Assembly (NCBI GenBank): GCA_023129415.1
Contig: JAGMCF010000077.1
Coordinates: 1-60,343 of the forward strand
DNA from: Candidatus Cloacimonadota bacterium
GTDB lineage: Bacteria; Cloacimonadota; Cloacimonadia; JGIOTU-2
Reading direction: 5' to 3'
Length of the DNA stretch: 60,343 nucleotides
Shown here: positions 21,480-50,025 of the stretch, in pieces
How the letters are laid out: each line of letters opens with the position of its first letter
Position numbering within the stretch: the stretch's first letter is position 1
The notes under the pieces: generated by a model
What the model was told of the DNA's origin: nothing
The model's database searches: none
Seen by the model: only the letters and a program-made list of their open reading frames with translations
Program-made: the position numbers and the translations under genes

Positions 21480-23258
21480 ATGAGAAAATTATTATCTTTT
21501 TTTGTATTAATTCTAATAATAAGCCCGATATTAAATGCATCTGAAAATATCAAAAATACAAAAACCAAAATTTTAACTCCCAAGGAAAAAGAAGAAAAAT
21601 GGTTCTCTGAAAATCCAGAAAGCTTACCTCACTGGATGACTGAAGAAGAGAAACTAAGAATCGATGAAATTGGTAAAGATTTTATGCCAACATACCCTCC
21701 TCCTTCACCAATAAGACAACCAGCTGAATTTGAGCCAATGGAAGGTGTTTTGATTAGATATCCATTTGGAATTTCTACATCCATTATTGCTGAGATGGCT
21801 GAAGATGTTATCGTTTACTGTGTGGTTACTTCATCTCAACAACCAAGTGCTTATACTATTATGTCAAATGCTGGTGTTAATATGGATAATGTCCAATTCA
21901 TTAATTGCTCAACTGATACTTACTGGATACGAGATTATGGTCCGTGGTTTATCTTCAATGGTGAAAATGAATCTGGAATAGTTGATTTTATTTACAATAG
22001 ACCCAGACCCAATGATGATGCTGTTCCGGGATATGTAGGTAGTTATTTGGGAATCGATGTTTATGGAATGAATATTGTTCATACTGGTGGAAATTATATG
22101 ACAGATGGACAAGGTATTGCTATTTCAACTAATCTTGTATGGCAAGAAAATCCGAGTATGACTCATGTAGAAATTGACTCAATTATGAATAAATATCTTG
22201 GAATTAATACTTATCATGTTGTGCCTGATGCACTTGGTGAATATATAAAGCATATCGATTGTTGGGCAAAATATCTCGCTCCAGATATAATTATGATCAT
22301 ACAAGTATCAACAAGTCATTCTTACTATTATGAAATTGAAGCTGCTGTGGACTATTTTGAAAGTCAGATGAGTTGCTACGGAACTCCTTATCAGGTTGAG
22401 AGAGTTTATACACATTTGTATCAGCCTTATATCAACTCTCTTGTTTTGAATAACAAGGTTCTTATTCCTATAACCGGAAGCATTTGGGATGATGACGCAA
22501 TTGCTTCATATCAAACAGCAATGCCAGGATACGAAGTCCTTGGTTTCTCTGGTTCATGGTCTAATACTGATGCATTGCACTGCAGAACTATGGGAGTTAC
22601 TGATAGAGGGATGTTATATATTAAGCACACACCTATTGAAGATACAGTTTATACGGCAAATGACTATTTTGTTCAAGCCAATATTACTCCTTACAGTGAT
22701 GAAAATGTGATAGAAGATTCCACTATTGTTTATTGGAAAACCTCAGATGAGGATGAGTTTAATGCTATTCAAATGCAGCAGGTTGGTAATCGCTACTTTG
22801 CATTTATCCCATCTCAACCTGACGGAACAACTATACAGTATTATATCCACTCTGCTGACAGTTCTGGTAGAAGCGAAAATCATCCTTACATCGGTGCTCC
22901 AGATGCTAATTCATTTTATGTGCAAAGTGGTGTTAGCATAGATACTCAAATAGCATCTCAGAAAAACATAATACTTTATCAAAATTATCCCAACCCCTTC
23001 AGCAGTTCTACCACAATATTTTTTAATTTAGCCACCGGTCTTCGCTACGCTACGCCCGGGCAGGCAGAGATAAAAATTTATAACATCAAAGGACAACTAG
23101 TAAAGAATTTCGAACTCCGAACTCCGAATTCCGAATTTACGAAGGTTGTCTGGGATGGAAAAGATGAAAATGGAAAAGAAGTTCCAAACGGAATTTATTT
23201 TTGTAGATTATCTTCAGGAGATAAATTAGCAGTTAAGAAGATGCTACTTCTGAAATAG
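21480..23258 (+). CDS. Secreted Porphyromonas-type peptidylarginine/agmatine deiminase with T9SS-like C-terminal sorting domain
   Basis: Signal peptide; PAD_porph motifs FEPMEGVLIRYP, DTYWIRDYGPWFIF, HTGGNYMTDG, GEYIKHIDCWAKYL (HxD), SNTDALHCRTMGV (catalytic Cys); CTD YQNYPNPFSSSTTIFFNL..AEIKIYNIKGQLVK..VVWDGKDENGKEVPNGIYFCRL. Confidence 0.92.
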   Translation: MRKLLSFFVLILIISPILNASENIKNTKTKILTPKEKEEKWFSENPESLPHWMTEEEKLRIDEIGKDFMPTYPPPSPIRQPAEFEPMEGVLIRYPFGISTSIIAEMAEDVIVYCVVTSSQQPSAYTIMSNAGVNMDNVQFINCSTDTYWIRDYGPWFIFNGENESGIVDFIYNRPRPNDDAVPGYVGSYLGIDVYGMNIVHTGGNYMTDGQGIAISTNLVWQENPSMTHVEIDSIMNKYLGINTYHVVPDALGEYIKHIDCWAKYLAPDIIMIIQVSTSHSYYYEIEAAVDYFESQMSCYGTPYQVERVYTHLYQPYINSLVLNNKVLIPITGSIWDDDAIASYQTAMPGYEVLGFSGSWSNTDALHCRTMGVTDRGMLYIKHTPIEDTVYTANDYFVQANITPYSDENVIEDSTIVYWKTSDEDEFNAIQMQQVGNRYFAFIPSQPDGTTIQYYIHSADSSGRSENHPYIGAPDANSFYVQSGVSIDTQIASQKNIILYQNYPNPFSSSTTIFFNLATGLRYATPGQAEIKIYNIKGQLVKNFELRTPNSEFTKVVWDGKDENGKEVPNGIYFCRLSSGDKLAVKKMLLLK

Positions 23259-24330: not shown

Positions 24331-26628
24331 ATGGAAAATACAATGAAAAAATACCTTTTATTTTTTATTGTTTTTATTTTATCATGTATATTAACAACAT
24401 TACTTTTTGCCAACTATTTTACAATTGAGAAGATAAATGAATTTGCATTTGCACAAAGTTTTAATTATAGTGAGGAGACTATAATAATAGAGTATCCATA
24501 TTTATATGCATTAACCTCACATGGACTGGAAATTTATGAAATCCAGAATAATGGACAATTGCAACAGCTTTCCATTTTGCCTATAACTTCACCATATCGT
24601 TTTGTTTTGCAAAATAATTTTGTGTATATTATAAATGCAATTAATTATGGTGAGTACAGTTTTTATCCACTTTGCTTGTATCAGATAGATATTATTGATA
24701 AAGAAAATCCATATATTTATAACCAGATTGAATTTGAGGATCCCATTTCTACTTTTCAAATACAGATCTTTAATAATTACCTCTATTTATTGAGTCTTTC
24801 AATACCAGATAAAATATATACTATACCTGAGTTGGAATTATTTACCACTATTCCTGATTCAATAGATATTTGGAAAATTTGTGATAATGATAAAATAGGA
24901 GTAAACAAAGTATATGCCAGTCTTATGGATATATATGATGTTACAGACCTCACAAATATACAACTTATTGGCACCATAGATATGAATCCTATTCATGGAA
25001 GTTGTGTGCCAAGGTATTTTGAAATGTTGAATGATTCAGTACTAATTGCTGGTGGTCAAACTGCGATTTCTTTTTGGAATATCTCTGATAATGCTAATTG
25101 GGAATATATTTCCCACTATGAACCAGGAGATTATACAATATATGGGAAAAATTTTACAATCATTGGTAATTATTTGGTTCTGACCAGATTTGATGGATTG
25201 GAGCTTGTAGACATTTCTGATATTCATAATCCCCAATTTGCTGATTATCTCTTTTATTATCCCGCGGAGGCAAGCGCCGCCTATAATGAAAATTTATATG
25301 TTGCAACTAGACTTGATGGCATACAGAGATATCAAGTACCAAATGGTCAGATTAATTTCATAGAAAATATTTTTGAATATCCTGCATTCCGTTCAGGATA
25401 TATTTATTTAAATTATTTGTTTATTCAAACCTATCGTTATGGAATTCTTTTATTTGATATAAGTAATCCAAATGAGCCAGTAGAAATTCCAACCATACTT
25501 TCAAATCCAGATTTTAAAATACTACAGGGTTATGAAAATTTGATTGTAGTACAGGATTATTCTGATTATAGTTACAAAATATTTGATATATCTGAACCAC
25601 TAAATCCAATATTGACAAATACAATACTTATTGGCGATTGGCTTCAGATAGGTTTGTCTTATTTAAGATTTGATGATGCTGATCCAAATATCGTCTATTT
25701 TTTTACTGTTTATCCAAATACAATAATAAGAAAGTATGACATTTCTGAACCTGGAATCCCTGTATTATTATTTGAATATACTGACCTTGATGGAGATAGC
25801 TTCTTTGTGAGAAACGGGTATGGCTATATGCTGAGCGATATAAATAATTACCAGAACTTATATATCTTAGATGGATTATATGAAAATAGTCCATATATAG
25901 TAAACACAATTGACCATTTTTCTGAATATGAATATTCACCTGTTATACAACTTTGCAGTGAATATTTATATATGCGTAATTCGTATGAAGAAACAAAGTT
26001 TTTTAACTTAGATAATCCTATTATTCCGCTATTTGAATTTGATTTGGAAGTACCTTCAAATTCAGGTCAGTTGTTCACTTTTGATAATTTTATATTCACC
26101 AAAACCAGCGTCTCTTCCTATATTTATGATATAAGTGGGAATCCTTCGGGTATCTTGGAACCTATTGATAGTATTTATGGGTTAACATACATCTGTTCAA
26201 TAGATTTTTATGAGTCAGATGAAAATAATTATTTGTTTATTATTGAAGAATCTGATATAGGTGTTTTTGAGTTTTCGTATACACATTCTGTGGATGATGA
26301 AATTTTAAATAATGAAAAAATAAATCTTAATAACTATCCCAACCCATTCAGAACTTCTACAACTATATCTTTTTTCAACACAAAACCATCAAAGAATACA
26401 AAGATAAAAATCTATAATGTAAAGGGACAATTAGTGAAAACACTACTACCATTCACCCCCGTATGGTCGCAAGCTTCCTACGGGGCAGGCACTCACAACT
26501 CACCACTAATCAGTGTTATTTGGAATGGGAAAGATGAAAATGACAAGCAGGTTCCAAATGGTATTTACCTTTGTAAATTATCAATTGGGAAAGAAACGAT
26601 TGTGAGAAAGATGGTTTTGTTACGATAA
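24331..26628 (+). CDS. Secreted beta-propeller (LVIVD-like) protein with T9SS-like CTD
   Basis: Repeated 'yvYviN../LfDISNPNEPVEI/IFDISEPLNPI/KYDISEPGIPVL' units; C-terminal YPNPFRTSTTISF..TKIKIYNVKGQLVK..VIWNGKDENDKQVPNGIYLCKL. Confidence 0.75.
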   Translation: MENTMKKYLLFFIVFILSCILTTLLFANYFTIEKINEFAFAQSFNYSEETIIIEYPYLYALTSHGLEIYEIQNNGQLQQLSILPITSPYRFVLQNNFVYIINAINYGEYSFYPLCLYQIDIIDKENPYIYNQIEFEDPISTFQIQIFNNYLYLLSLSIPDKIYTIPELELFTTIPDSIDIWKICDNDKIGVNKVYASLMDIYDVTDLTNIQLIGTIDMNPIHGSCVPRYFEMLNDSVLIAGGQTAISFWNISDNANWEYISHYEPGDYTIYGKNFTIIGNYLVLTRFDGLELVDISDIHNPQFADYLFYYPAEASAAYNENLYVATRLDGIQRYQVPNGQINFIENIFEYPAFRSGYIYLNYLFIQTYRYGILLFDISNPNEPVEIPTILSNPDFKILQGYENLIVVQDYSDYSYKIFDISEPLNPILTNTILIGDWLQIGLSYLRFDDADPNIVYFFTVYPNTIIRKYDISEPGIPVLLFEYTDLDGDSFFVRNGYGYMLSDINNYQNLYILDGLYENSPYIVNTIDHFSEYEYSPVIQLCSEYLYMRNSYEETKFFNLDNPIIPLFEFDLEVPSNSGQLFTFDNFIFTKTSVSSYIYDISGNPSGILEPIDSIYGLTYICSIDFYESDENNYLFIIEESDIGVFEFSYTHSVDDEILNNEKINLNNYPNPFRTSTTISFFNTKPSKNTKIKIYNVKGQLVKTLLPFTPVWSQASYGAGTHNSPLISVIWNGKDENDKQVPNGIYLCKLSIGKETIVRKMVLLR
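26458..26490 (+). repeat. 33-bp element (copy 1) inserted in a heptad tract within CTD loop 2
   Basis: cccgtatggtcgcaagcttcctacggggcaggc; flanks rejoin as accattc|acc^actc|acaactc|accacta. Confidence 0.75.
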
Positions 26629-26654: not shown

Positions 26655-28628
26655 ATGAAAAAAATACTTATCTATACATTGCTTTTATTCTTTATTTCTT
26701 TAAAATTATATGCTGAATACAATCAATTACCAGGTTTTCCTTATTCTTCAGTTCAAGATGGGACATTTGGTTCAATGAGGGGAGTGGGTGTTGTTAACAT
26801 TAACGATGACCCTTTTTTAGAGATAGTAGTTTCTACCTTTGACACAACATTTGCTATAAATTATCAGGGAGAGAGATTGTGGACTGCATATACACCTCAT
26901 GAAGCACAAAATACTATGTCTTTTGCTGATATGGATAATGATGGCTATTTAGAAATATTACAAACTACAAGAAGTGGGTGGTTGTATATCTTAGATAAAG
27001 ATGGTAATAATTTTCCCGGATGGCCCAAATATTTTGGAACACCTGCTCCATATTTAAATTATGTAATAACCACACCAGTAGCTTATGATTTAGATGATAA
27101 TGGTCAGAAAGAGATTATTTGGGGAGACTTTGATACTTGCGGCTATCAAAACTATTTATATGTTGTTGATATTAATGGAGATAATTTTAATGATAACTTT
27201 CCTTTTCCCGTTCCTAATGGTGTTTCTGGTACACCTGCAATAGGAGATGTTGATAATGATGGTATTCCAGAAATTGTCTGTATGGATATTTATGAATTAT
27301 ATATTCTTAAACCTGATGGTTCAATTCTTGATGGATGGCCCCAACAACCATTTGATGGAAATGCAAAATATTGGAATACATCACCTGTTATTGCTGATTT
27401 GACAGGAGATGGATTTTTAGAAATAATAACTGCTGCTTTAGGTCCAATTCCTCCTGGAACACCCTCAGGTTTAATTGTATATACATATTATGGTACAATT
27501 CTTGATGGTTGGCCACAAGATTTTCCATATATCACAAAGTGCACTCCATCTGTTGCAGATTTAGATAATGATGGAACATTAGAAATAATCTGTGGTCGTG
27601 GAGATGTATATTCTCTTGGAAATTTATTATATATATTTGATATTAATGGTGAAAACTTCTTAAATGCTCCTTATTATAGCCATGGTAATGTAATGGGACC
27701 AATTATTATTGGAAACATAGACGATTCTTCTGAAAAAGAAATAATATTTGATTCAAATAGAGCTACTGCTTATCCTCATATAGGATATATACAGGGTATT
27801 CATTGCAATGGAGATACTATTATTGATTTTCCTTTACGACCCAAAGGTTGTACCTTGAGTAATTCCTCAGTATTTGGTGATATAAATCAAGATGGTGTAT
27901 TAGATTTAATTACATTTTCTGATGACATAATTCATGATGAAAGTTTATGGATTTATGTATACAATTTAGATCATCTATATAACCCACTTGAAATAGAATG
28001 GAAAACCTATCAATACGATTTTCAAAGGCTTGGTCAATATCATCCTCCCTACTCATTTGATCCACCAATAAATTTAACTGCTCATACAGATGAACATGGG
28101 GTATATCTTTTATGGCAACCACCAGAAAACAGAAGAAATTATGCCTATAATATCTTTCGTGATGATGATTTTCTTAAGCGTAATGCGGACACAACATATA
28201 TTGATACAGATGTGCAAAGCTACACAACATATTATTATTATGTTACATCTGTTTACGAACAGGGATATAGTCCACCTTCAGAAGTAATTGAAGTAACAAC
28301 AGACTCCATAATGTCTGTTGATAATTTGCCTTATTCAGATACATCCAAAATATGTCTAAACTGTTTCCCAAACCCCTTCACTACTTCCACAACAATTTCT
28401 TTTAATTTAGCCACCAGGCTTCGCTCCGCTTCGCCCGGGCAGGCAGAGATAAAAATTTATAATGTAAAAGGCCAATTGGTTCGAAAATTGTCAATAGTAA
28501 ATAGTCAATCTTCAATTGAATGGGATGGAAAAGATGAGAATGGGAAAGAAGTGCCAAATGGAATTTATTTTTATAGATTATCTTCAGGAGATAAATCAGC
28601 AATTAAGAAGATGCTACTTCTAAAATAG
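26655..28628 (+). CDS. Secreted FG-GAP/VCBS-repeat protein with FN3 domain and T9SS-like CTD
   Basis: Repeats such as FADMDNDGYLEILQT, IGDVDNDGIPEIVC, VADLDNDGTLEIICG; FN3-like PINLTAHTDEHGVYLLWQPPENRRNYAYNIFRDD; CTD FPNPFTTSTTISFNL..AEIKIYNVKGQLVR. Confidence 0.8.
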   Translation: MKKILIYTLLLFFISLKLYAEYNQLPGFPYSSVQDGTFGSMRGVGVVNINDDPFLEIVVSTFDTTFAINYQGERLWTAYTPHEAQNTMSFADMDNDGYLEILQTTRSGWLYILDKDGNNFPGWPKYFGTPAPYLNYVITTPVAYDLDDNGQKEIIWGDFDTCGYQNYLYVVDINGDNFNDNFPFPVPNGVSGTPAIGDVDNDGIPEIVCMDIYELYILKPDGSILDGWPQQPFDGNAKYWNTSPVIADLTGDGFLEIITAALGPIPPGTPSGLIVYTYYGTILDGWPQDFPYITKCTPSVADLDNDGTLEIICGRGDVYSLGNLLYIFDINGENFLNAPYYSHGNVMGPIIIGNIDDSSEKEIIFDSNRATAYPHIGYIQGIHCNGDTIIDFPLRPKGCTLSNSSVFGDINQDGVLDLITFSDDIIHDESLWIYVYNLDHLYNPLEIEWKTYQYDFQRLGQYHPPYSFDPPINLTAHTDEHGVYLLWQPPENRRNYAYNIFRDDDFLKRNADTTYIDTDVQSYTTYYYYVTSVYEQGYSPPSEVIEVTTDSIMSVDNLPYSDTSKICLNCFPNPFTTSTTISFNLATRLRSASPGQAEIKIYNVKGQLVRKLSIVNSQSSIEWDGKDENGKEVPNGIYFYRLSSGDKSAIKKMLLLK

Positions 28629-41449: not shown

Positions 41450-43594
41450 ATGAATAAAAATACTTTGATTCTAATCTTTCTTTTCTCCGTTCTACTTTCT
41501 ACTTTCTTTTTTTCTCCGCTTTTTTCTATTGAGGTTGGTGGACACATTTCTGAAAATACAACCTGGTCACCTGAAAACAACCCCTATTATGTTACTGATG
41601 ATGTGTATGTTGATGAGAACATAATCCTAACAATTCTTCCCGGAACAATAGTAAAATTTAATGCTGCTCCACTATATAATTCATCATGTATAGACGATTA
41701 TTTTGTATATTATAATGGGACAAATGTAGCAAAGATGCTCTGGGTTGATGGAAGAGTTATTGCAAATGGAACTGAGAATGAACCAATTACTTTTACTAGA
41801 ATGCAGGATTCTCTATATTATCATTGGGGAATCGTATATCTACGCGAGCAAGCAGAATTAAGCAGTTTTAAGTATTGTGATTTTGAGTACTCGGCATTGA
41901 TGTTGATTGTGCTCGGTATTATACCAAGAGGAGCAATTAGTATCTATAATGAAAGTGTAATTGTTGTAAATTGTAATTTTATAGATAATCTATGCGGAGT
42001 ATTTATAGACAGACCAACTCAAAATATAATTATAAAAAATAATCTATTTTATAATATAGAAAATTTGCCCCCTAATGTAATGTATTCAACAGGTGGAATA
42101 GATATTTCAGCAAGTCCTCATGGTGAATCATCATCAATTCTCATTGCAGAAAATATATTTAATGAAACAATTGCAAATTATGCTCCTTTAATTATAGCTG
42201 GTGCACCTGCTGATGTAGTGAATAACCAATTCTATGAAGGTGGCATTTGCGCTTGGATGGATTCAGAAGCAGCTTCATATTTTTATGATAATAGCTTCAT
42301 AAATTGCAATACAGGAATTGATGGGGATGAACCAACCGATTCACTTTATATCAAAAAAAATCGTTTTGTAAATGGTTACGATGGTATTGATATTAATTAT
42401 GCTTATATTGAAATATCTGATAATTATTTTGAAGGGTGTGATTTTTATACTGACCTTGACTGCTCTGGAAAAGTTTATAATAATTTTGCTAATGGAGGAG
42501 GAGTATTTACTCCAGGTAATTTAGAAGTATTTAATAATATTGCATCAAGTAATAATGGTCCAGGTTTATGTGCAACTTATCAAAGAATATCATGTTACAA
42601 TAATATTTCAATCAATAATCAATATGCTTTTGAAGCTAGTGAATCTTTTGATAATTGTATTTTTCTTGGCAATGAAGAAATTGAGCAGTTTGGTATTACT
42701 GGTAACCCCATCTTCCGAAACTGTATTTTAGATTTTGAATTACCTCCAGAATGCATAGATGCTGGTGGCAATATCTGGGTAGATTCACTTTCGTTTGATT
42801 CTATTTTCGTGGATTGGCAGAATGGAGATTTTCATCTTGTAGAGGGCAGTCTTGCTATAGATGCTGGTTTTGACACAACTAACTATTATTGTCCATTCGA
42901 TATGGATTATAATCAAAGAATATGGGATGGAGATGAGGATGGAACTCCTATAATAGATATAGGACCTTATGAGTTTGCCTCACCGCAATTAGGTGGTATC
43001 TGTGGAACAGTTTATCAAACAGGAAATAGTGAACCATTGGATTATGTTCTTCTAAAGGTAAATAACCAACCAGGAGAATTTGAGTTTTCAGATAGTTTAG
43101 GTTACTTTAAGTTTCGCCTACCAGCAGGTGTTTATGATATTTATGCAGAAAGAGTCTTTTATGAGGATGTTGTTGTTGAGGATATTGAGGTAATTGATGG
43201 TGAATTTACAGAAGTTGAAATCCCAATGACAACTACATTGGTAGGAATAGATGAACAACCTTTCCAACCTTCTGAAATATCAAATTTAAGTATTTACAAC
43301 TACCCAAATCCTGTCCGAAATTCAACTACTATATCTTTCACAATTCCAGGAGATATAACAGAAGCTGAATTAAAAATTTACAACATTAAAGGACAGCTTG
43401 TAAAGAATTTCGAACTCAGAACTCCGCCCGTCCTCCGCAGAAGCTCTGCTTCGGAGGATGGAAACTCTGAACTTAATAATGTCGTCTGGAATGGAAAAGA
43501 TGATTCTGGAAAACCCGTTGCCAATGGCATCTACTTCTATAAAATATCTGTAAATAATAAAAACCTTATTAAAAAAATGATTATATTAAGATAA
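41450..43594 (+). CDS. Secreted right-handed beta-helix protein with T9SS-like CTD (paralog 2)
   Basis: Near-identical to 39295..41394 over the first half. Signal peptide MNKNTLILIFLFSVLLSTFFF starts at 41450; the track N-terminus (MEYVRQLAESPYDIPEEP) reads through a palindrome. Confidence 0.85.
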   Translation: MNKNTLILIFLFSVLLSTFFFSPLFSIEVGGHISENTTWSPENNPYYVTDDVYVDENIILTILPGTIVKFNAAPLYNSSCIDDYFVYYNGTNVAKMLWVDGRVIANGTENEPITFTRMQDSLYYHWGIVYLREQAELSSFKYCDFEYSALMLIVLGIIPRGAISIYNESVIVVNCNFIDNLCGVFIDRPTQNIIIKNNLFYNIENLPPNVMYSTGGIDISASPHGESSSILIAENIFNETIANYAPLIIAGAPADVVNNQFYEGGICAWMDSEAASYFYDNSFINCNTGIDGDEPTDSLYIKKNRFVNGYDGIDINYAYIEISDNYFEGCDFYTDLDCSGKVYNNFANGGGVFTPGNLEVFNNIASSNNGPGLCATYQRISCYNNISINNQYAFEASESFDNCIFLGNEEIEQFGITGNPIFRNCILDFELPPECIDAGGNIWVDSLSFDSIFVDWQNGDFHLVEGSLAIDAGFDTTNYYCPFDMDYNQRIWDGDEDGTPIIDIGPYEFASPQLGGICGTVYQTGNSEPLDYVLLKVNNQPGEFEFSDSLGYFKFRLPAGVYDIYAERVFYEDVVVEDIEVIDGEFTEVEIPMTTTLVGIDEQPFQPSEISNLSIYNYPNPVRNSTTISFTIPGDITEAELKIYNIKGQLVKNFELRTPPVLRRSSASEDGNSELNNVVWNGKDDSGKPVANGIYFYKISVNNKNLIKKMIILR
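43427..43462 (+). repeat. 36-bp palindromic element inserted in heptad tract of CTD loop 2
   Basis: cccgtcctccgcagaagctctgcttcggaggatgga; removal rejoins cgaactc|agaactc|cg^aactc|tgaactt. Confidence 0.7.
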
Positions 43595-48047: not shown

Positions 48048-48145
48048 AATTAAAAGTGGATTAAAGGGCTAATTTCTATGTGGAGTGTTGAAACAAGTTC
48101 TCCGCCAACTGGTGGAGGACGAACTTTCATCAATGTAAAAAGTTC

Positions 48146-48210
48146 GTCCCGATTGAATCGGGACTATACCCGTCCTCCGTAGTCCCGATATAATCGGGAC
48201 TGAGGATGGA
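48146..48210. repeat. Composite palindromic repeat cluster
   Basis: GTCCCGATTGAATCGGGAC (48146-48164), then cccgtcctccgt-AGTCCCGATATAATCGGGACT-gaggatgga (48169-48210). Confidence 0.75.
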
Positions 48211-48321
48211 GAGAACGGGTCAGGACAAGACTAGATCCCCGCATACGCTGGGATGAAAAAAATGCTTCTTCTAAAATAATCATTCAGTATTTTTTTGATA
48301 TAAAAAATTGGAAGTATTAAA

Positions 48322-50025
48322 ATGAAAACAATTGTATTCATCGCACTATTACTAACATTGATAGTTATAATAGGAAACAATTCTCTTTCTGCTCAAGATT
48401 GGAAAACCTATCCTTATCACCAAGAAGGAAGTGTGATCTATTTTCCGGAAGATGAAGGTTGGCATCCTTCCGAACCAGCAGAATGGTGGTACACATGTGC
48501 ACATCTTACTGGAGAGTCAACAGGTACAGAATATAGTTTAATGCTTACATATTTTTACCATCCTGACTTTGGGTTTGACGGTTTTCGCATTTTTAATATT
48601 TCTGATGAAACAAACGGGCAATTCTATGCTCAAACTTTACCTTGTAATTATAGCAACCTGGCACAAGACCACCTGAATATCCAGGCATATCCCCTTGGAA
48701 GTGTTGCCGAAGAATGGGTTACTCTTGAAGACTCATTAGAAAATTTAATCCCTTTTGAGTATCACCTATCTGCAACATCTGAAAACGGAGCAATTGATTT
48801 ATATTATAATACTGTGAAAAGACCTCTTATGGTTGGCGGAACAGGTTTTCTTTACCAGGGTGCTTCAAGTTATACATATTACTATTCTCAAACAATGCTT
48901 GATGTATCTGGAATTCTCACTCTTAATGATATTACAGAGCCAGTAACCGGAACTGCATGGTTAGACAGGCAATATGGTGAATTTGATCCGAGCGAGAATG
49001 AAGATTACGAATGGTTTTGTGTTCAACTCTCAAATGGAATGGATTTGAATATTTATAATATTTTTGATGCCCAAAATCAAATACCTGATACATTAACTTA
49101 TAAACTTTGTAGTATTTACATTAATGATTCAACTTATACTGCTACATCAGATTTCGAAATAACCCGTGTTCAATATTCATTTATGCCGGATAGTGTTATG
49201 TGTTACTCACAGCAATGGTGCATCACATTGAATAATATAGATCTTACTATTACTACTCAAAACCAAAATAATGAAGTATTATTACCTTTTAGGTTTTACG
49301 AAGGAAGTACAACCGTTCAAGGAATGGTTGACAGCATAATGGTTACAGGAAAAGGTTTTGCAGAACTTCTGCATTCTTATGAGAATCCTGATATTCAACT
49401 TATTGCTCCCAATGGTAATGAAATATGGGATGGCTCGGACCCGGTGATCTGGCAATTATCAAATCCTGATGATGGCAGACCTGTCTTATTCGATTTGGAA
49501 TTGAGTACGGATAATTGTATAACTTATGAGCCAATTGCACAAGGTTTGATAGATACCCTGTATTATTGGGATATTTCCGGAATTGAAGAAGGAACAGTTT
49601 GCTGGCTTAAGGTTACCGGTTATTCTTTGGACAGCACACTTGTTGGTTTCGACGAAACAGATACATCTTTTGTAATTGGTGCTACCAGTATTGACGAATA
49701 TGAAACTTCAATTCCTGGCAGATTTGGCTTAAGCCAGAACTACCCCAATCCCTTCAACCCTAAAACAACAATTTCATTTAATCTCACCGCAGAGGACACG
49801 GAGAACACGGAGTTAATTATTTATAATCTCAAAGGGCAGAAGATTAGACAATATTCAATATTCCCCGAACAGTCGCAAGCTCCTTACGGGGCAGGCAATA
49901 ATCAATCTTCAATTGTCTGGGATGGAAAGGATGCCAATGGTAAACCTGTTTCCAACGGTGTATACTTCTATAAACTCTCTACTGACAAAAAAACTTCTAT
50001 AAAGAAAATGCTTGTATTAAGGTAA
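48322..50025 (+). CDS. Secreted CrtC/AttH-like lipocalin-fold protein with T9SS-like CTD
   Basis: DEGWHPSEPAEWWYTCAHLTGESTGTEYSLMLTYF, EPVTGTAWLDRQYGEFDPSENEDYEWFCVQLSNGMDLNIYN; CTD YPNPFNPKTTISFNL. Confidence 0.8.
   Translation: MKTIVFIALLLTLIVIIGNNSLSAQDWKTYPYHQEGSVIYFPEDEGWHPSEPAEWWYTCAHLTGESTGTEYSLMLTYFYHPDFGFDGFRIFNISDETNGQFYAQTLPCNYSNLAQDHLNIQAYPLGSVAEEWVTLEDSLENLIPFEYHLSATSENGAIDLYYNTVKRPLMVGGTGFLYQGASSYTYYYSQTMLDVSGILTLNDITEPVTGTAWLDRQYGEFDPSENEDYEWFCVQLSNGMDLNIYNIFDAQNQIPDTLTYKLCSIYINDSTYTATSDFEITRVQYSFMPDSVMCYSQQWCITLNNIDLTITTQNQNNEVLLPFRFYEGSTTVQGMVDSIMVTGKGFAELLHSYENPDIQLIAPNGNEIWDGSDPVIWQLSNPDDGRPVLFDLELSTDNCITYEPIAQGLIDTLYYWDISGIEEGTVCWLKVTGYSLDSTLVGFDETDTSFVIGATSIDEYETSIPGRFGLSQNYPNPFNPKTTISFNLTAEDTENTELIIYNLKGQKIRQYSIFPEQSQAPYGAGNNQSSIVWDGKDANGKPVSNGVYFYKLSTDKKTSIKKMLVLR
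49864..49896 (+). repeat. 33-bp element (copy 2) inserted in a heptad tract within CTD loop 2
   Basis: cccgaacagtcgcaagctccttacggggcaggc; flanks rejoin as tcaatat|tc^aataa|tcaatct|tcaattg. Confidence 0.8.

Follow-up and report, generated by a model that had tools for sequence, protein, structure and literature searches.

A gene for a CrtC-like secreted protein in Candidatus Cloacimonadota carries, inside a tract of tandem heptanucleotides in its C-terminal sorting domain, 33 nucleotides that interrupt the tract but not the reading frame. How such a segment came to lie there, and whether it belongs to a mobile sequence or to the protein, is the question addressed here. Features are listed in Table 1.

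Table 1. Features in the window, the whole stretch of 60,343 nucleotides that was analysed
Feature	Position	Strand	Sequence or product	Basis
Sorting domain encoded by ORF 24331-26628 (second protein); its loop C holds an independent element copy	26332..26625	+		
Second element copy	26457..26490	+	CCCCGTATGGTCGCAAGCTTCCTACGGGGCAGGC; PVWSQASYGAG	Word search of window, family pattern
Empty-site paralogue, block exactly 33 nt shorter	28362..28625	+	KLSIVNSQSSIEWDGKD	
Sorting domain with a different repeat-derived loop-C insert	43298..43591	+	CGTCCTCCGCAGAAGCTCTGCTTCGGAGGATGG	
Gene that hosts the insert, for a CrtC-like secreted protein ending in a T9SS sorting domain	48322..50025	+		PF07143, PF17186, PF18962
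Por_Secre_tail sorting domain, insert in loop C	49738..50022	+		TIGR04183, PF18962, predicted fold
5′ heptads	49849..49862	+	CAATATT CAATATT	TRF, junction periodicity scoring
Hairpin element, 34 nt	49863..49896	+	CCCCGAACAGTCGCAAGCTCCTTACGGGGCAGGC	Family pattern, fold, phase, filled/empty comparison
3′ heptads	49897..49915	+	AATAAT CAATCTT CAATTG	Read from sequence

The insert and its host domain

The original prediction, made from the letters alone, described a CrtC-like secreted protein with a C-terminal domain, and both PF07143 and Por_Secre_tail (PF18962) were indeed found. The sorting domain lies above the cut-off for TIGR04183 and PF18962 and adopts the CTD fold in prediction, which places it in T9SS type A; its model matches PorZ (5m11) and the substrate chain of the dGldL-NucA complex (8glk_D), as well as the CTDs of mirolase (8qb1) and RgpB (7pq4). 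By sequence and predicted fold it is an ordinary member of this family, but unlike ordinary members its loops are enlarged by repeat-derived peptides, a feature for which a search of open-access papers returned no report. In the AlphaFold model the insert, residues 48-58 of the 100-residue domain, lies between two strands; pLDDT falls under 50 at domain residues 50-59, and the insert loop is accordingly predicted to be disordered. The N-terminal part of the CrtC-like protein has no match among 59 other genomes, ranging from the same genus to the same class, and sorting-domain paralogues were therefore compared instead of orthologues.

The sequence quoted in the prediction for 49848-49915 reads exactly so, and its central claim, that removing 33 nt restores an unbroken heptad series, is correct at 49864-49896: excision in silico leaves CAATATT CAATATT CAATAAT CAATCTT CAATTG. 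The excised unit encodes the 11 residues PEQSQAPYGAG. Cutting at 49863-49895 yields the identical product, the boundary being shiftable by one base because a C is present at both ends. For the window copies, periodicity across the junction was evaluated for periods of 6-12 and for cuts shifted by −6 to +6; the copy at 49863-49896 scores highest (0.86) at period 7 when a single base of the 34-nt hairpin is kept. As had been stated, no target-site duplication is visible, with at most one base common to element and target. The 3′ heptads are kept in sorting domains both with and without the insert.

A dispersed hairpin family

The insert belongs to a family of elements of 33-43 nt, each composed of CCCC, a variable stem-loop and CGGGGCAGGC, for which the search pattern was CCCC-N12..42-CGGGGCAGGC. 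This pattern has 29 matches in the host genome, a few of them overlapping and most of them intergenic, and its reversed form, used as a control, has 0. A slightly stricter pattern is present in 13 of 17 genomes of the host's taxonomic family, while the reversed control of that pattern gave 0 in all 60 genomes searched. Among the matches listed in a contig scan, a subfamily occurs in Cloacimonadota, Bacteroidota, Neomarinimicrobiota, Scalindua and other MAGs, and the copies outside the host genome lie mostly between genes. Some of these matches carry 'Armatimonadota' in their record names, a label that is probably wrong, the same sequences being found in genomes of the window genome's class.

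The stems vary in sequence with pairing kept, 4 of 10 stem pairs showing double, compensatory changes. The conserved flank is GCAGGC at the 3′ side, or GCCTGC at the 5′ side on the opposite strand. The ends first proposed for the element, CCCG...CGGGG, do belong to a hairpin family but are insufficient alone to define it, the conserved GCAGGC tail being needed as well. A regulatory RNA was considered and rejected, with 0 Rfam matches in the window.

A lack of further copies had been named beforehand as grounds for abandoning the idea of an element; copies exist in the window, elsewhere in the host genome and in other genomes. The second copy in the window has joined flanks that read ACTACCA TTCACCA CTCACAA CTCACCA CTAATCA, a tract different from that at 49849-49915, and its periodicity peaks at the same setting as the first copy (period 7, one base retained; score 0.67). 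A paralogue without this copy, 11 residues shorter, lies at C120:9860 (KTLLPTTTHQSPLTKVIWDGKD). The assembly is a draft with an estimated contamination of 7%, and an assembly or binning artefact would be a conceivable source of such a segment; given that the same sequence appears in several independent assemblies and that both window copies lie inside intact reading frames, we regard this as wildly improbable.

Position within tandem repeats

The phase of the two window copies is part of a general pattern. For 97 non-redundant copies, the flanks were joined at every offset and periodicity was scored across the junction, with shuffled right flanks as the null. Copies embedded in tandem repeats number 33, against 6.2 expected, and in 17 of the 97 the exact phase is restored on removing all but one base, against 0.76 expected (Poisson p about 1e-17); five further copies among the 33 high-scoring ones peak at an equivalent phase. 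The remaining 64 copies have no strong tandem tract at their present flanks. Mean periodicity over all copies, taken offset by offset, shows only weak peaks, and it is the best offset of each copy, compared with shuffled flanks, that is decisive. Beyond sorting domains, such embedding is seen for instance in CACGGAGGCA[..]CAGAGAACACAG and CAGTTACCACTCACCAGTTAC[..]CACTCAC, and many intergenic copies sit in tandem tracts other than the heptads. These junctions are consistent with copies that arise by transposition-like insertion.

Within the window, heptanucleotide tandem tracts of six sequences occur at 23105, 34843, 39075, 47904, 49849 and 55733, each in loop C of a different sorting domain, with the 7-nt unit running through all three frames.

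Filled and empty loops

Alleles lacking exactly 33 nt, whose absence had likewise been set out in advance as evidence against insertion, do exist. In a DNA alignment, the block measures 80 nt in six filled sorting domains, drawn from different genomes, and 47 nt in eight empty ones, which are paralogous or foreign; the nearest empty allele, L212, reads NLTAEEAENAELIIYNIKGQRIKQFSIDNCQSSIVWDGKD. Together with the dispersed family and the restored phase, these shorter alleles support the original notion of a small, frame-preserving element in a periodic tract.

Identity of the element among the six filled copies is 0.99, a value inflated in part by selection since the search patterns fixed much of its core. 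The heptads, left unfixed in the first search pattern for filled copies, are 0.89-0.92 identical, and the rest of the domain 0.60-0.64. This unusual conservation of the heptads could mean that a block of about 66 nt moves as a whole: the hairpin and the heptads on either side of it would be inserted or exchanged together, and the 33-bp hairpin would be just the GC-rich centre of the block. A scan of the phylum found the insert with heptad flanks in 5 of 125 genomes at 14 places, of which 11 are in loop C of sorting domains (one of them truncated where its contig stops) and three are intergenic; one of the latter (L331/L264) has heptads on both sides, as a mobile block would predict. In the empty alleles, however, the heptads are present and nothing but the hairpin is missing, and the copy at 26457-26490, the loop-B copies and many intergenic copies occupy other tracts, which makes mobility of the whole block unlikely.

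Every loop-C copy of this subfamily has the identical position and frame, which favours copying of the loop over repeated insertion. The N-terminal cargo parts of the filled copies are unrelated, save one distant pair, and the loop with its insert has thus probably been copied between sorting domains of unrelated cargo, through recombination or gene conversion. The allele at 49864-49896 is probably not a fresh insertion, because the same insert with its heptads occupies the same loop of unrelated cargo in other Cloacimonadota. The common heptad flanks and position would also fit a single ancient insertion followed by duplication of that one domain; yet outside the block the domains share no more than 60-64% identity, the cargo parts are unrelated as noted, and the copy at 26457-26490 and those in loop B represent separate insertions, so that we give this history very little credence.

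A further alternative treats the peptide rather than the DNA as the unit: SQAPYGAG would be a selected feature of the sorting domain, passed on as coding sequence, its likeness to a DNA repeat being secondary. The constant position and frame in loop C, and conservation of the peptide across genomes, would be expected from this. Against it, the family is mostly intergenic, the tail of the element is translated differently in the loop-B copies, whose frame gives TGQA where loop C has YGAG, and the peptide is absent from most sorting-domain paralogues and predicted to be disordered. Selection for the peptide accordingly appears improbable, and insertion of a DNA element followed by loop copying remains the preferred reading.

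Sorting domains as probable landing sites

The distribution of repeats was compared within a sample of 1.01 Mb of the host genome that was chosen for contigs with sorting domains, with genes called by ORF length. It holds 143 sorting domains and comprises 150 kb of intergenic, 813 kb of other coding and 40 kb of sorting-domain DNA. Matches in intergenic, other coding and sorting-domain DNA, respectively, number 9, 0 and 4 for the CCCC...CGGGGCAGGC family (F1), 111, 15 and 22 for YCCCGA..TCGGGR hairpins (F2), 22, 0 and 6 for CCCGTYCTCCG (F3), and 1, 0 and 3 for a fourth family (F4). The density of F2 in sorting domains is about 30-fold that in other coding DNA, and for F1 to F3 the sorting-domain density equals the intergenic density within error. 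Scattered repeats are thus about as frequent in the sorting domains of this genome as in its non-coding DNA, and they are rare in other genes.

The copies that persist there are uniform in length: each of the four F1 copies that lie in the host genome's sorting domains has a net length of 33, while intergenic copies vary more. Many sorting-domain loops match intergenic repeats directly. As to domain size, 29 of 130 sorting domains in the host genome exceed 90 residues. In two relatives outside the host's family, F1 is absent from 30 sorting-domain loci, and the 16 sorting domains recovered fall within a narrow size range, all with at most 85 residues.

Several loops record other repeats. At 22983-23255 of the window, the loop-B peptide GLRYATPGQAE (GTCTTCGCTACGCTACGCCCGGGCAGGCA) matches intergenic repeat DNA, and the loop-B peptide RLRSASPGQAE at 28362-28625 looks related to it. 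An intergenic cluster of CCCGATNNAATCGGG hairpins at 48140-48235 is related to inserts in loops A to C of sorting domains. Elsewhere, a loop-B repeat occurs with and without a nested second hairpin (DLHPSSAVPIKSGRRVD vs DLHPSSAVAMLRRVD; L073 near 18163, minus strand, and L088 near 5014, plus strand). Four sorting domains of the host genome, on C187, C89, C241 and C59 (L019, L023, L028 and L032), share a loop-C insert LECGESLS... that derives from a longer nested palindrome, GGAGTGTGGAGAGTCTCTCTCCAC...ACTCC.

Relation to known small repeats

The small dispersed repeats (SDRs) of Nostoc and its relatives, described by Elhai et al. in 2008, are reportedly dispersed hairpins with compensatory changes that lie in tandem heptamers and have no known transposase. 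The element resembles them in its tiny size, dispersal, compensated hairpin and embedding in tandem heptamers; it differs in length (33-43 nt, against 21-27 nt for SDRs), in sequence and in the phyla concerned and, unlike SDRs, has copies in frame in one protein domain family. As a multicopy dispersed repeat of less than 50 nt with a compensated hairpin and precise embedding in tandem repeats, it can be called SDR-like.

REP and REPIN sequences are moved by RAYT transposases (PMC3116915), and REPs with GTAG and CGTC tags are distinguished (PMC3733652). Both they and the element are short palindromes with a conserved flank, mainly intergenic but with some copies within ORFs. The element, however, has GCAGGC as its flank in place of a GTAG or CGTC end tag, sits in tandem repeats, and is not found on both sides of a RAYT gene. 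A RAYT was rejected as the mover, since none of the 12 Y1_Tnp matches in the host genome is flanked by the element, and no other transposase gene so flanked was found there. One F1-like hairpin lies about 270 bp upstream of one Y1 gene; on either side of this gene stand matched hairpins of other kinds. At L179:1250-2140 (C205 of the host genome), a Y1 transposase gene (1444-1989) lies between three matched hairpin pairs, including CGTCAGGGAWTGGTCCCTGACG; as CGTC-tagged REPs have no dedicated transposase (PMC3733652), this pairing deserves a check.

Rickettsia palindromic elements (RPEs; Ogata 2000, 2002, reviewed in PMC10969869) are palindromic repeats found in frame in protein genes and between genes, and the element resembles them in both respects. 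RPEs are typically near 150 bp (100-150 bp), a length that sets them apart from the element, and they occur in unrelated genes, in contrast to coding copies in the host genome that are confined to loops of one sorting domain. The combination of terminal inverted repeats and a target-site duplication of at least 2 bp that marks classical MITEs and IS elements is not seen, junctions sharing at most one base.

Interpretation and implications

We consider it likely that a small dispersed SDR/REP-like hairpin element enters short tandem repeats, that sorting-domain loops tolerate it when the frame is kept, and that the loop at this locus then spread among sorting domains. The element would be a non-coding hairpin that shares no more than one base with the tandem tract it enters. 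T9SS sorting-domain loops in this lineage appear to be built from such tracts and to tolerate in-frame additions, so that copies free of stops and of multiple-of-three length could persist as extra flexible peptide, here of 11 residues. The insert peptide may be neutral for secretion. Identical loops in unrelated proteins would most readily result if the loop was afterwards copied from one sorting domain to another.

A wider reading is conceivable, although we lean somewhat against it: the element may represent a new family of very small hairpins, specific for tandem tracts and distributed over several phyla of uncultured anaerobes. The Cloacimonadota T9SS sorting domain would then offer a safe haven within coding sequence, its loops being rebuilt from such repeats again and again, and secretion tags would evolve by taking in DNA from between genes.

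With filled sites that can be paired with empty ones, copies by the dozen and a precise rule for the target, the spread of one of the smallest dispersed DNA elements becomes testable. One protein domain is about as open to repeat DNA as non-coding sequence is, which offers a route to new in-frame peptides in surface loops. The same observation carries a warning, in that conservation of loops between sorting domains may stem from the spread of repeats rather than from selection on the protein.
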